Source: a virus. Taken from it: 52,322 bases of DNA. The position numbers were made by a program, and so were the translations under genes. The stretch spans positions 1 to 52,322 of the IMG/VR virus record IMGVR_UViG_3300037277_000027; one strand, given 5' to 3'. This document shows, in pieces, positions 308 to 44,694 of this stretch; within the stretch, counting starts at the first letter, position 1; each line of letters starts with the position of its first letter. The notes under the pieces are model-generated. The model worked only from the letters and a program-made list of their open reading frames with translations, had not been told where the DNA came from and made no database searches.

Positions 308-922
308 TTAGTTTTCCATAGGAATTAAAAAATGCTTCCTAAATTCATTATCAAGGACAAATTGTTCAATGACTCTTGTTCTTGCCAGAGAGAGCCTGAG
401 ATTAGCATCTGGAATATCTAAATAAGCCTCGTCTTCCGTCTTGGCTTTAGCTACCCTTGTTATCTTATCTAAGTCATACAGCTTTGAACACTCTGAGCAC
501 AGACCATAAAAACCTAAGTTACCAACAAACTGCAAAGGCGCAAAGTTATCAGCACAATGTAAGCAAACAACAATATTCGCAGCATCAGTTCTCCATTTAC
601 TAACATCGTCCTCATTTCTCCAGTCGTGAGTATCGATAAATTTCTTTACGCCAATTTTCTCAATGATATCTCTGCCATAAGAAAATCTTTCCTTGAAATC
701 AATCTCTTCTTCATTAAGAAATTTAGCCCATATTTTTTCATATTCTTCTTCTGTTCTTTTGTGGATTATTTTATCGCCAACAATTTCGACTTCTATGCCA
801 GCTTCATTTTTTTTGAGTGAACTTAACATTCTGATTGCGTTGTTTGATTTTTCTAATGCTGATTTATCTACATTGAATCTTGGGTCATGATCATCAATAG
901 GATTAATTTGTAACTTATCCAT
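308..922 (-). CDS. Hypothetical protein with a four-cysteine zinc-ribbon-like motif
   Basis: The protein has 204 residues from an ATG at 922, chosen because GGAGGT lies 4 bases upstream. In-frame upstream ATGs lack a ribosome binding site. The N-terminal half is charged and probably helical. The second half holds two CxxC pairs (CLHC and CSEC) about 20 residues apart, consistent with a structural zinc site. I do not recognise the family. It is transcribed away from the structural block and is separated from it by the long non-coding region that follows. A regulatory or DNA-binding role is possible from the zinc motif alone, but this is inference. Confidence 0.7.
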   Translation of the reverse strand: MDKLQINPIDDHDPRFNVDKSALEKSNNAIRMLSSLKKNEAGIEVEIVGDKIIHKRTEEEYEKIWAKFLNEEEIDFKERFSYGRDIIEKIGVKKFIDTHDWRNEDDVSKWRTDAANIVVCLHCADNFAPLQFVGNLGFYGLCSECSKLYDLDKITRVAKAKTEDEAYLDIPDANLRLSLARTRVIEQFVLDNEFRKHFLIPMEN

Positions 923-952
923 AATTACCTCCATAATCAAGTGATACTATAA

Positions 953-981
953 GTTATACCACACTTTTGAGCCAATGTATA
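953..981 (-). promoter_or_regulatory. Putative promoter for the 308-922 gene
   Basis: On the minus strand there is an extended -10 element TGGTATAAC (hexamer TATAAC at 953-958). A weak -35, TATACA (976-981), lies 17 bases upstream of it. It sits about 30 bases upstream of the start codon at 922. Confidence 0.4.
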
Positions 982-1033: not shown

Positions 1034-1143
1034 TGTCCAAGATTTTAACTGAGTGTCCAAAAAAGTGCCCGAAATGTCCAAGAAATAGTCCTATTTGTCC
1101 AGCCTTTAGTCCTATTTGTCCAAGGATTTTTTGGAAGTGTCAA
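1034..1143 (+). repeat. TGTCCA direct array with 20-21-bp period (left arm)
   Basis: TGTCCA starts at 1034, 1054, 1075, 1096 and 1117, and a degenerate TGTCAA starts at 1138. The spacings are 20, 21, 21, 21 and 21 bases, i.e. two helical turns, so all copies face the same side of the helix. Weaker AGTCC copies at 1087 and 1108 fall in between. The segment 1051-1070 (GAGTGTCCAAAAAAGTGCCC) recurs inverted at 1489-1509. Confidence 0.8.
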
Positions 1144-1231
1144 CCTAAATTTCCCCAAGCTATAACTAAAGTTCAAAATAAAGGAAGGGAAATAGGGTGT
1201 ACGGGAGCTTGTTCTTCGCCCTGGTACTTAC

Positions 1232-1283
1232 TATATATATAATATATATAAATTATTTATTATTATATTATATATAATAATAA
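1232..1283. other. 52-bp tract with no G or C
   Basis: Every base from 1232 to 1283 is A or T, with many TATATA and TTATTA steps. The tract lies between the two inverted TGTCCA arrays. In iteron origins such a tract would be the DNA unwinding element; this assignment is inference. Confidence 0.5.
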
Positions 1284-1459
1284 CGGTTCTGATAGATAAA
1301 AAGCCTATATAGTAAAAAAAATTGTTTTGGGTACTTTTTGTTCGTAGTTTTTTAGATTTCATATTCTTACCCCCCGCCTTTTATTTAACGGTTCTGACTG
1401 ACTTTTTCTGGGAGTTGTTTGTTCATGCGTGCTTGAGGGCATTTTTGGATAATTCTAGG

Positions 1460-1547
1460 TGGACATTCGAGCTATTTTGCGTCCATAAGGGCACTTTTTT
1501 TGGACACTCAGAAAAACTTTTGGACATTTATTGCCGTTTGGTGGACA
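1460..1547 (-). repeat. TGGACA array (right arm, inverted relative to the left arm)
   Basis: TGGACA, the reverse complement of the left-arm motif, starts at 1460, 1501, 1521 and 1542 (spacings 41, 20, 21). A near copy TGGATA occurs at 1446 and an oppositely oriented GTCCA at 1481. The segment 1489-1509 is the reverse complement of 1051-1070 apart from one extra base in the A run. Confidence 0.75.
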
Positions 1548-1593: not shown

Positions 1594-1719
1594 TTTGAAG
1601 GTGTTTTTTTGACTTTTTATTGTAAGACACTTCCAATTTTGAGGACGAAGTGTGTGTAAGCCTTTTGACTCTAAGTTTTGAAGGTGTTTTTAGAGCTATT
1701 TTTTGGAAGACACTTCCAA
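1594..1719 (+). repeat. Degenerate 83-bp direct duplication
   Basis: TTTGAAGGTGTTTTT occurs at 1594 and 1677, and AAGACACTTCCAA occurs at 1624 and 1707; both pairs are exactly 83 bases apart. Sequence between the anchors has diverged. The core GACACTTCC is also present inverted as GGAAGTGTC at 1133-1141 in the left array, and GGAAGACACTTCC at 1705-1717 is itself an inverted repeat. Confidence 0.6.
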
Positions 1720-1775
1720 AAAAAGTTATGTTGACCAAATGGTATTTACAGACAATTTCGACTATACCCCTCTCG

Positions 1776-1804
1776 TTTACTTGAATTTTAAAAGATGATA
1801 TACT
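1776..1804 (+). promoter_or_regulatory. Promoter of the structural block
   Basis: TTTACT (1776-1781) and TATACT (1799-1804) are 17 bases apart, 25 bases before the start at 1829. The sequence AAAAGATGATATACTT around the -10 recurs almost exactly at the promoter near 12816, suggesting a shared phage promoter class. Confidence 0.6.
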
Positions 1805-1828
1805 TTTTTTAGAACATATAAGGGGTTG

Positions 1829-4153
1829 ATGCGATTGTTTAGTAAATACACAACTTTCTCTTTGTCAAAAGATGATGTTGAAATTTTAGATGGTGAGCTA
1901 ATAAAAACAGCTTCTATAAAGTTGCCTGACGGCATTGCTTATGACCCAGAATTCTTTTACATGAGAGTTAGGGGTGTAAGTGCTGGAGAATATTATGGGT
2001 GCAACAAAAATGCTGACTACTTTCCAGAAGATGAACTTGTTAAAGGTCATCCTACGTTTATGCAAGCACATGCCTTTAAGAATCATGAGAACAAAGATGT
2101 TGCAAACGCTATAGGCGACGTACTCGCTGCCCATTGGGATAATAAGATGAAGAGCGTAATTCTTCTACTTAGAATAGACAGAAGACTTGCTCCAACAGTA
2201 GTTAGAGGATTTGAAAAAGGTTACATGACTGATGTGTCTATGGGTTGCAGGATTGATTATAGTCTTTGCTCTATCTGTGGAAACAAAGCAAAAATACGTT
2301 CAGAATATTGTGACCACATTAATAATATGAAGCATAAAATATTCGCAGACGGACGTAAGGTTTATGAAATAAATATAGGTCCTAAATTCCATGATATTTC
2401 AGCCGTTCTTAATGGAGCAGAAAAAGTTGCTAAAGTAACTGGTATGCTTATCACTGGCAATAAGATAGCTTTTGATATGCAAAGGTCTTTAGAAAAAGTT
2501 GCTTCTATAGAAGAATCTATAAATAAAGAAAATTTAGAAATGAACGTCAAAGCGGCCAGTGAGATTATAGAAGATAATTTAGAGATATTAGAGAAGACAG
2601 CATCGGCTAAAAAAAGTAACTTGCAAAAAATAGCTGAAATCAAAAAAGAGATTCAGTGCAAGATAGAAGACATAGCTAAAGGCGAAGTTATATCGGATAA
2701 GTTCAATCATGCAGATAAGCTTAGCCAATTGTTAAAACTTGTTGGTACAAGATTTTGGGATAGAGAAACTTGTGATGAGATATCTGCTGGAATACGTTCT
2801 ATTGCTACGGAGAAGCTTATCCCTGTGCCTGTAGCTTTTAGTCAGTTCTTAAGAGTGTTAGATTTTGCTGGAATAGAACTTTCTCCTTTAGAGTTCAAAG
2901 AAATCGCAGACAATCTTATGGGCGACGCACACGACGCTGATGTTAGGGATTATGATATGGGTACTCCAGATGATTTAGATTCGGAAGAAGAGTCTGTATT
3001 TAATAATGACATTGGAGATAGTATTAACTTACCAACAATGTTTAACGCAGTAAGAGGCTTGAGAAGAATTCCTCTTGAAGATAAAATTCTCTCTGGTAAT
3101 CCTATGAGTAAGCTTAAAGCTATTATTATTCGTGTTCAAAAACCAATGGTTGCATCAAGCGAAAGTCTTGGAAGTTTTATGAATATGATTAAAGGTTTTA
3201 TGCCAGAGAGAAGCAATCATAGACGCTTCTTAATAAAGAGGATTGTTAATCTCCCAAAAGAAGCTAATTACTCACACTTTGCAATAACTAAAGTAGCAAG
3301 TGACGAGAATGTCAATGCAGACAATATAAACTCTGCATTGACTATGTTATTGTATGCGAAGTACCAAGGCGATAGAGTCAGAAGATTTAATGATGGTGAC
3401 CTAGATTTTGGTCTGAATAAGTTTGCTTCAGTTATAGAAGGAGAGAAGTTCGACAACATTCTAGAAGATGCCATAGAAAAAGAAGCTTTTACTGGCAAAG
3501 GATACACCACAAGAAAAGCATTGCTATACGGTATGCCTTTAACCTTTGGTTACTCTGCTCTGCAACGCTCCAGGATTAAAAACAACGAAAACGTTAGTGG
3601 TTTCAATAGGTATGTCGCAGAGAACCCAGCCAATGCATACGTTGTGCAAGCTTTAGCTGGCCCTCATGCTGTGAAGGCTCTTAAGCGCCTACCTAAGAAA
3701 GTGGCAAGAAAAGCTGAGGAACTATCCGATAAAACATACATGAAACATGCTGATATGTTCAGAGATAGCCAAATTGATGAAGAGGCTAAAAAGATATATA
3801 ATGAATCTCAATTGGTTGCCTTAAAGAAAGCTTGCTTATTAATAGAAGATGAAAGACAAGATTTATCCGAGCATGTCCTAGGAATGAATAAACTAGCAGA
3901 GTCAGATACGGACAGATACTTGCAAATATGCAAGGATTACTTTAAAATTGAATTTGAGAAGGAATTAGAAAAGACTTCAGGCGTAATAAAAGAGATGGCT
4001 CTCGGTGCTCTAGGGAATACCGTCTTTAACAAAAAAGGAACTTCTCTATTAGCCTCAATGCCTGCGGCAGTAATTGATGGAGCGGCGATTACATTGTTAG
4101 CTAAACACCTATCCGAACCTAAAGTAAAATCACCAAAACCTAAAGAAAAGTAG
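1829..4153 (+). CDS. Prohead (head maturation) protease with long C-terminal extension
   Basis: This is a 774-residue protein. The first 230 or so residues resemble the procapsid serine proteases of the T4 gp21/HK97 (S78) kind. His86 lies in an NHEN context, followed by the strand pattern IGDVLAAH and ILLLRI. Ser137 lies in VSMGCRID, with Asp143 a possible third residue. Right after the serine comes a cysteine cluster (C140, CSIC, then EYCDH), which could bind zinc. The remaining 540 residues are mostly helical and charged and I do not recognise them; a scaffold or core role is possible. The family is usually about 200 residues, so the length is unusual. The start is ATG after AAGGGG; the TTG just before it abuts the ribosome binding site. 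The position directly before scaffold-like and capsid genes supports the role. Confidence 0.75.
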   Translation: MRLFSKYTTFSLSKDDVEILDGELIKTASIKLPDGIAYDPEFFYMRVRGVSAGEYYGCNKNADYFPEDELVKGHPTFMQAHAFKNHENKDVANAIGDVLAAHWDNKMKSVILLLRIDRRLAPTVVRGFEKGYMTDVSMGCRIDYSLCSICGNKAKIRSEYCDHINNMKHKIFADGRKVYEINIGPKFHDISAVLNGAEKVAKVTGMLITGNKIAFDMQRSLEKVASIEESINKENLEMNVKAASEIIEDNLEILEKTASAKKSNLQKIAEIKKEIQCKIEDIAKGEVISDKFNHADKLSQLLKLVGTRFWDRETCDEISAGIRSIATEKLIPVPVAFSQFLRVLDFAGIELSPLEFKEIADNLMGDAHDADVRDYDMGTPDDLDSEEESVFNNDIGDSINLPTMFNAVRGLRRIPLEDKILSGNPMSKLKAIIIRVQKPMVASSESLGSFMNMIKGFMPERSNHRRFLIKRIVNLPKEANYSHFAITKVASDENVNADNINSALTMLLYAKYQGDRVRRFNDGDLDFGLNKFASVIEGEKFDNILEDAIEKEAFTGKGYTTRKALLYGMPLTFGYSALQRSRIKNNENVSGFNRYVAENPANAYVVQALAGPHAVKALKRLPKKVARKAEELSDKTYMKHADMFRDSQIDEEAKKIYNESQLVALKKACLLIEDERQDLSEHVLGMNKLAESDTDRYLQICKDYFKIEFEKELEKTSGVIKEMALGALGNTVFNKKGTSLLASMPAAVIDGAAITLLAKHLSEPKVKSPKPKEK

Positions 4154-42889: not shown

Positions 42890-43816
42890 ATGGCTAGTTT
42901 CGATGTAGGATTTAAAAAAATGAATAATTCTGCCTCAGCCTTCAATTCTTTTAATGTAAAAAAGAAGAAATCTGGCTCAAATAATGCTACTTGGATATTT
43001 ACTACTCCTGGATCTGCATCATTTACTGCACCCACAACTGGCTCTTATAGAGTCGTTGTTGTTGCGGGTGGTGGCGGCGGTGGTGGCGGTAATAATTTTT
43101 CTGGTGGTGGCGGTGGTGGCAGAGGTGACATAAAGAGACAAATAGTATCTTTAAACGCCAATACTGTTTACGCTATAACTGTAGGTGCTGGCGGTGCTGG
43201 CGGAACAGGAAATAGTGGTTCTGGTGGTACTTCGGGATCTTCGGGTGGAGTCTCATCTTTTTCAACACTTATTACTTGTAATGGTGGTGGTGGTGGAGGA
43301 AAAGGCAATCCGTCTAATCCAAATGGTGGCTCTGGTGGTGGAGGTGGAGGTGGAGCCTTCTCAGGCTCTACATATGTTGGTGCTAGTGGAGCTGCTAATG
43401 GTTATGGTGCTGGGGGTGTGGGAAGTTTAGTGGGCGGATTAGGCACTACTGGATCTGCTGGAGTTAATACTACATCGTTCATGGGCATTAACACTGTAGG
43501 TTATGGATCGGGAGTCGGTGGCACCACAACAGGTAGTGGAGGCGCTGGAGGCGGAGGCTATGGTGGTGTTGGTCAAAATGCAGATAATGCTACTTATGGA
43601 GGTGGCGGCGGCGGTGTAGGTGGTGGTGGCGGTGGTTACGGAGATATATCTGGACTAAAGCCTGCGTCACCAATAAACTGCGGATCTGGTTATGGAGCTG
43701 GAGGATCAGGCATGGGAGGAACGTCAACACCTGTCGATGGCTCAGTTATTTTGGCTGGTGTGTCTGGGATTGTTATAATATATCTCAATATCACTGATGG
43801 AGGTACTTTTCCATGA
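42890..43816 (+). CDS. Glycine-rich tail fibre/adhesin, copy 1
   Basis: 308 residues. After a basic N-terminus (NVKKKKSGS) comes the signature WIFTTPGSASFTAPTTGSYRVVVVAGG, typical of glycine-rich phage adhesin domains. Then about 200 residues of polyglycine with periodic Gly6-8 runs, and a closing hydrophobic strand SGIVIIYLNITDGGTFP. Such glycine-rich domains can form polyglycine-II sandwiches at fibre tips that bind receptors. The neighbour at 43813 is a paralogue, and the two overlap by four bases (ATGA). Confidence 0.7.
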   Translation: MASFDVGFKKMNNSASAFNSFNVKKKKSGSNNATWIFTTPGSASFTAPTTGSYRVVVVAGGGGGGGGNNFSGGGGGGRGDIKRQIVSLNANTVYAITVGAGGAGGTGNSGSGGTSGSSGGVSSFSTLITCNGGGGGGKGNPSNPNGGSGGGGGGGAFSGSTYVGASGAANGYGAGGVGSLVGGLGTTGSAGVNTTSFMGINTVGYGSGVGGTTTGSGGAGGGGYGGVGQNADNATYGGGGGGVGGGGGGYGDISGLKPASPINCGSGYGAGGSGMGGTSTPVDGSVILAGVSGIVIIYLNITDGGTFP

Positions 43817-44694
43817 GTCTACAAAGTTTTAGTAGTGGTTTTTTAAAACCAAAAAAAGATGATAAAAAAGTTAATAGTTTTGGTGTTTCAAGTGGCGATA
43901 CATTTATATATGACTCTCCAGGAGCTTACACTTTTACACCTAGCATATCTGGCTCATACAATGTAATCGTTGTGGCTGGTGGTGGCGGTGGTGGCGGTGG
44001 TAATAACTACTGTGGCGGTGGCGGCGGTGGGCGAGGTGAAGTCAAACGTCAAATATTAGCTTTAAGTGCTGGGACTGGCTATTCGATAACTGTAGGATCT
44101 GGAGGCGCTGGCGGAACAAGCAATAGTGGTACTGGAGGGTCTAACGGCTCAGCAGGAGGAACATCATCGTTTGCAGCATTAATGTCATGTAATGGTGGCG
44201 GCGGTGGGATGAATTACAACGGCGTACAAACTCCAAACGGAGGCTCTGGCGGTGGCGGTGGCGGTGCTGACAGTGGTGTTAATAGTTCTGGAGGATCTGC
44301 GGGTCAGTATGGTGTTGGAGGCAATGGCGTTAGCGCTGGGCATGGGGTTGCAGGAGGAAATGGTCTTGATACTACGAATATAATAACCCTCGGCATGGCT
44401 GGGTATGGCGTGGGAACAGGTGGAGTTCCTGTCTCAGGATCAGGTTCTGGTGGTGGTGGTGGCGGTGGCTATGGTGGAGTTGGAGGGGCTAATTATAGTG
44501 ATGCTGGTGGTGGAGCTGGAGGCTATGGCAACACACAACTCACAATAGCTGGCGGCGGAGGCTTTGGGTACGGAGCAGGAAATACAGGAATGGGTGCTCA
44601 CGGTTCTTTTGAAGACGGCTCCGTAAACTATAAAGGCGCTAACGGTATCATCATTATTTACTTTAACAAAACAGATGGAGGTACATTCACATGA
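43813..44694 (+). CDS. Glycine-rich tail fibre/adhesin, copy 2
   Basis: 293 residues, the same layout as the preceding gene: short N-terminus with KPKKDDKK, PGAYTFTPSISGSYNVIVV, polyglycine region, and a final NGIIIIYFNKTDGGTF. The two share framework but differ in the loops between glycine runs, which would form the binding face. Translationally coupled on both sides by ATGA overlaps. A host-range pair or a heteromeric tip is possible. Confidence 0.7.
   Translation: MSLQSFSSGFLKPKKDDKKVNSFGVSSGDTFIYDSPGAYTFTPSISGSYNVIVVAGGGGGGGGNNYCGGGGGGRGEVKRQILALSAGTGYSITVGSGGAGGTSNSGTGGSNGSAGGTSSFAALMSCNGGGGGMNYNGVQTPNGGSGGGGGGADSGVNSSGGSAGQYGVGGNGVSAGHGVAGGNGLDTTNIITLGMAGYGVGTGGVPVSGSGSGGGGGGGYGGVGGANYSDAGGGAGGYGNTQLTIAGGGGFGYGAGNTGMGAHGSFEDGSVNYKGANGIIIIYFNKTDGGTFT

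Follow-up and report, generated by a model that had tools for sequence, protein, structure and literature searches.

RESULTS

Two opposed arrays of TGTCCA sites flank an A/T tract

The window, by which we mean the whole stretch of DNA analysed here, is a linear IMG/VR virus record of 52,322 bases, that is, a 52-kb phage fragment. The element of interest (1034-1547) is bordered by an operon that runs leftward and a structural operon that runs rightward. The latter begins with the gene of a head-maturation-protease-like protein of 775 aa (1826..4153, plus strand; phrog_18299, phrog_2774 and alignment), which adjoins the element on the right in every relative. On the left, a conserved CxxC...CxxC protein of 210 aa (308..940, minus strand) is also the left neighbour in the related phages G001, G002 and G003, and lies on the same side of the element in G005; within the window's clade, this protein gave no convincing Pfam or PHROG match. 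Two sigma-70-like promoters, assigned by consensus match only, are placed outside the arrays, one for the left operon (946..975, minus strand) and one for the protease/structural operon (1776..1804, plus strand; TATACT preceded by TG). Sigma-70-like sites in this region number no more than expected by chance, and sequence inspection showed that similar TATAC-containing stretches also precede the protease gene in L006, L007, L054 and L055. No RNA family was detected in the window with Rfam. Elsewhere in the window, the GC-richer stretch 43813-44694, in which CCGCCA repeats are dense (10 in 520 bp), encodes a protein very rich in glycine, which is probably tail-fibre or adhesin-like.

The left array (1034..1143, plus strand) comprises five TGTCCA sites at 1034, 1054, 1075, 1096 and 1117, a degenerate TGTCAA at 1138 and weaker sites, and it has orthologous arrays in L005, L006, L007 and L066. 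The right array (1460..1547, minus strand) holds inverted TGTCCA at 1460, 1501, 1521 and 1542, as well as an inverted GGGCACTTTTTT at 1489. These TGTCCA and TGTCAA sites, first listed in an earlier note made from the letters alone, were recovered at exactly the same coordinates, with same-strand spacings of 20, 21, 21 and 21 in the left array and of 41, 20 and 21 in the right one. The other features described in that note were found again as well: the segment 1051-1070 (GAGTGTCCAAAAAAGTGCCC), of which an inverted copy with an additional T lies at 1489-1509, the run of 52 bases without G or C (1232-1283), and a pair of TAACGGTTCTGA sequences at 1281 and 1386, 105 apart. The first TAACGGTTCTGA copy (1281..1292, plus strand) stands at the edge of the A/T tract and the second (1386..1397, plus strand) follows 10 helical turns past it; between them lies a T-rich segment with a C run (CCCCCC) at its end (1329..1378). 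When weaker phased sites are counted (AAAGTGCCC at 1062, AGTCCT at 1087 and 1108), the pitch of the left array comes to about one helical turn.

The element has a dyad organization centred at ~1291, and its longest inverted pair (1030-1064 and 1496-1530) is 86% complementary over 35 nt. The A/T tract is off-centre, 110 bp from the left array and 177 bp from the right one. When the window was shuffled 100 times with its dinucleotides preserved, no hexamer occurred nine times within 520 bp (shuffle maximum, 7), which argues that the array is not a product of chance, and the strand-sorted layout yields four mirror pairs, more than random placement (null 0.003). Further right, at 1594..1723, an outer piece of the element may be formed by a 43-nt direct repeat (1594-1636 and 1677-1719; 84% identical, 83 bp apart) and a 25-nt palindrome (1699-1723), their membership being uncertain. 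The repeat holds GACACTTCC, which matches the AAGTGTCC core in degenerate form, and the palindrome scores as a terminator too.

The element is duplicated in related phages

A capsid-protein search retrieved five relatives among viral contigs, and more were obtained by profile search; capsid identity to the relatives is 57-80%. The large genomes are those of G001 (152.6 kb), G002 (166.8 kb), G003 (168.2 kb) and G005 (160.5 kb). Three records, G005, G006 and G009, are identical where compared and were counted as one phage. INPHARED nucleotide searches with the window and four elements returned no match, and matches at the protein level extend no further than Bacillus phage G and Bxz1-like mycobacteriophages (capsid 21-27%). 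In G005, at ~38-48 kb, an SNF2-helicase gene lies in separate pieces, as if interrupted by an intron, an intein or an insertion.

An element of the same layout occupies the intergenic region ahead of the same protease gene in G001, G002, G003 and G005. All four of these large relatives (152-168 kb) also carry a second element 71-78 kb from the first, so that two copies (A and B) are found at 4.5 and 82.6 kb in G001, 13.1 and 84.6 kb in G002, 13.2 and 90.8 kb in G003, and 2.7 and 73.8 kb in G005. No such array was seen in the stretches read of the distant relatives L070 and L071 and of the fragments G008 and MT835501. One further relative, G007 (contig C31, JAOAHC010000014.1), is a 77.7-kb contig binned in a Clostridia genome (SKW48), a placement that possibly hints at the host; it represents a phage arc between two elements, starting inside one and ending inside another, 77.5 kb apart.

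Within one genome, the two copies share 74-83% identity across 426-554 bp. Repeats of this kind, 400-550 bp long, could recombine, and the G007 contig breaks at elements, two points in favour of a recombination, fork-stalling or packaging-initiation site, in which dyad and fragility would serve concatemer processing. However, gene order around copies A and B is conserved, meaning that no fixed inversions between copies are seen, the contig ends of G001-G003 do not lie at elements, and packaging sites repeated every 46-78 kb would yield sub-genomic heads. Contig ends within elements, as in G007, are expected where an assembler stops at a repeat. We consider this explanation very unlikely.

Conserved layout, changing sequence and a motif switch

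Copies from different genomes barely align with each other, giving short matches only, mainly in the A/T tract and the motif runs. The earlier note had called for a comparison of related phages, and spacing is indeed kept across them while the sequence between sites differs. When same-strand spacings are pooled across the window's clade, they show a peak at 10.5 bp (n=42, V-test z=6.7), and the phasing is also seen with copies A alone (n=25, z=4.85); in this clade, the phasing fits the earlier proposal that the sites lie on one face of the DNA. The arrays of G002 and G005 are of mixed polarity. To the right of the A/T tract, the window, G001, G002, G003 and G005 each have a segment of A and T runs with runs of G or C at its borders, and sequence inspection showed that its side of the tract does not change among the A copies.

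Both copies of G003 have CTCTTGGCA as their core in place of AAGTGTCCA/TGTCCA, with a pitch of 21, 21, 21 and 11. The presence of CTCTTGGCA in the two copies of G003 at the same 21-bp pitch is what would be predicted for a single trans factor that co-evolves with all copies. A 13-base sequence, CCCTCAAACCCGC, is common to the G001 and G003 elements despite their different cores, and neither genome contains its first ten bases at any other place.

Divergent operons border both copies in the window's clade, and the arrays are flanked by sigma-70-like promoters. The element could therefore be a large cooperative operator, at which a phage repressor or activator bound to the arrays would switch two divergent operons; in line with this proposal, the promoter-like motif GTATAAGATA occurs only twice in G001, each time adjoining an element. 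Yet arrays are found at only 2 of the 6-16 divergent neighbour pairs per genome in this clade, and G005 contains 20 occurrences of GTATAAGATA, mostly far from any array. Further points against an operator are that the weak A/T tract is hundreds of bases from the promoters, that the promoter-like sites fall outside the arrays, and that copy B of G001 is flipped relative to its flanking genes when compared with G002, G003 and G005, as judged from alignment strands and gene order. The flipped orientation suits an element without direction. As an aside, all 20 occurrences of GTATAAGATA in G005 (L156-L164) are on one strand, over ~3-114 kb, and look like a phage-specific promoter class.

The earlier note had also suggested looking for an inflection in GC skew. 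A switch in the sign of the skew accompanies each copy in the clade, but no consistent replichore term remained after per-gene strand regression. The change is explained by gene strand, and we dropped GC skew as evidence for an origin.

The same element occurs in other phage groups

Viral contigs were scanned for exact matches to three phased TGTCCA sites and the matches were filtered for a nearby A/T run, which revealed the element in at least six further contigs that were read whole, from at least three other phage groups. The contigs obtained in this way (G015/G016, G017/G018, G019/G020 and G022) have little or no protein similarity to the window's clade: for G015/G016 and G017/G018, the terminase, portal or primase is 22-26% identical to that of the clade, and G019/G020 is a DNA polymerase A phage. 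The element of G022 lies directly upstream of a primase gene, an adjacency found in G022 only. A parallel scan for TTGGCA gave at least one candidate, L318, a 34 kb contig from an apparently unrelated phage in which a TTGGCA-class array stands beside an A/T tract near the portal gene.

The A/T-run filter picked at least one element per other group but not the additional copies, which emerged from whole-contig cluster counts: 3, 3, 2, 2, 1 and 1 copies in 117, 181, 114, 94, 64 and 46 kb, with three copies each in G015 and G016. Overall, one copy is found in contigs of 46-64 kb, two at 94-168 kb and three at 117 and 181 kb, these numbers being lower bounds since the contigs are metagenomic or IMG/VR records of which completeness is not established. 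When aligned with their own reverse complements, the elements of G015/G016 and some others show 66-73% identity over ~300-600 bp, and 7 mirror pairs were counted in L240, L205 and L283. The 10.5-bp spacing peak was not reproduced in the other groups, where spacings of 9-10 bp are common.

Copies in G015, G016, G017 and G018 lie between co-directional genes. A divergent location is consequently not universal, which argues against a divergent operator, and we judge that reading unlikely.

The A/T tract is the weakest duplex

The A/T run of the window is its least stable duplex stretch, whether 40, 60 or 100 bp are considered. Across 11 of 11 contigs with 21 elements, the A/T tracts of the elements rank 1 (or 1-2, 1-3) among all 40-bp sites, and in the six contigs from other groups they coincide exactly with the 40-bp sites ranked weakest. 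The tract (1232..1283 in the window) is thus a predicted DNA unwinding element.

This property also bears on the proposal that a ParB-like protein of the phage, or a nucleoid protein, binds the element, which would then act as a centromere-like partition site or as a DNA-positioning site. Plasmid centromeres also have clustered, phased repeats, which the arrays match, and several copies per genome would be tolerated. Being always the weakest duplex of the contig is, however, not a feature of partition sites, and no ParA/ParB-like protein was found among the part of the proteins that was scanned. Such a role is very improbable in our opinion.

Replication proteins and candidate initiator

The phages encode their own DnaE-type polymerase, a UvsW-like SF2 helicase and a DnaG-like primase-helicase with a Zn motif, Toprim and Walker A/B. 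By analogy with the alpha protein of P4, the primase-helicase is a weak candidate for the initiator. In its alignment columns 1040-1079, 53% of the residues that are invariant in the TGTCCA class are changed in the CTCTTGGCA-class phage, as against 26% overall, a lead only, because this phage is also the most diverged. Foldseek searches of the PDB gave no match for the modelled C-terminal half of the primase-helicase (mean pLDDT 60), nor for the modelled flanking CxxC protein (mean pLDDT 77). Five of five primase-helicases (L175, L176, L177, L178 and L179) end in Leu-Phe after a variable tail, possibly a clamp- or SSB-binding motif. As for DnaA boxes, exact TTATNCACA is absent from the window and one-mismatch matches are at chance level. 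DnaA is not needed by every iteron/DUE-type origin.

DISCUSSION

A probable dyad, iteron-like origin

Our results make it probable that the element is a dyad, iteron-like origin of theta replication, often present in several copies and served by a predicted initiator. An origin was the first choice of the earlier note, ahead of an operator, and it finds support in the spacing comparison, the copy number and the co-directional copies. Two to three copies per large genome, copies rising with contig size, and co-directional neighbours favour an origin over a divergent operator, and the rise with size, together with the extreme weakness of the tract, is best accounted for by an origin. Points that weigh against an origin are the GC skew, which shows no replichore component after gene strand is accounted for, the mixed array polarity of G002 and G005, the spacing peak seen in the window's clade only, and the fold searches of two candidate proteins, which pointed to no initiator.

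Our working model is that a phage initiator, or an initiator plus a helicase, would bind the AAGTGTCCA-type sites on one helix face in two opposed arrays. The two resulting nucleoprotein arms may wrap or pair across the dyad and melt the intrinsically weak A/T tract between the arrays, where replication would start. Two replisomes would then be loaded and depart in opposite directions, so that we infer a bidirectional course. With 2-3 copies ~46-78 kb apart, a genome of 100-180 kb could be copied from several start points.

It is an evenly balanced possibility that these elements represent an undescribed class of dyad, array-flanked origins, spread across several unrelated tailed-phage lineages with largely the same TGTCCA core and multiplied with genome size, which would make large phages multi-origin replicons. 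To our knowledge, there are few well-described cases of multi-origin replication in tailed phages, and for large uncultured phages an origin is hardly ever known. The combination of an array with the weakest duplex offers a sequence signature with which origins may be predicted in contigs, and the rise in copies with genome size turns the number and spacing of origins into quantities that coverage analysis can test directly. The exchange of the motif in a single phage provides a route to the initiator by co-variation. Finally, the sharing of a core motif by several phage groups leads one to ask whether a single initiator family or a host protein is the reader.

Comparison with known origins

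A literature search on the motif retrieved unrelated papers only, and such an element was not found described in a search that covered few subscription papers. Several known systems nevertheless share parts of its design. Phage SPP1 has two similar origins, oriL and oriR, whose repeats are bound by the initiator gp38 and adjoin an A/T-rich unwinding element (PMC6316719). Likewise, G001, G002, G003 and G005 each have two copies of similar organisation. The SPP1 origins differ in that direct repeats are combined with an A/T region, ~13 kb apart in a 44-kb genome, with oriL within the initiator gene, whereas the present elements have opposed arrays, form a 400-600-bp dyad, are intergenic and lie 46-78 kb apart.

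In herpes simplex OriS and OriL, inverted initiator boxes flank an A/T-rich spacer, and several redundant copies are present per ~150-kb genome (PMC12543377). The window shows the same opposed sites around an A/T-rich spacer (left +++++, right ----). In contrast, the herpes origins have three boxes versus 8-16 sites here, they belong to a eukaryotic virus, and their initiator is an SF2 helicase without an established counterpart in these phages.

Satellite phage P4 relies on two separate cis regions, ori and crr, with iterons recognised by one primase-helicase; the two are kilobases apart and both are required for one start. Separate iteron regions are a likeness to the elements described here, and a single phage primase-helicase as their reader would be an analogy.

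Iteron origins place helically phased initiator sites beside an A/T-rich unwinding element (PMC5043065). Phased sites adjoining an A/T-rich element are the feature that our element shares with iteron plasmid and lambda origins (P1, RK2, F, ori-lambda). Those origins usually have a one-sided array and occur once per replicon, whereas the present element has arrays on both sides and several copies, and in the window's clade Pfam and PHROG matches pointed to no rep gene beside it. Altogether, the element combines features of the SPP1, herpes and iteron origins.
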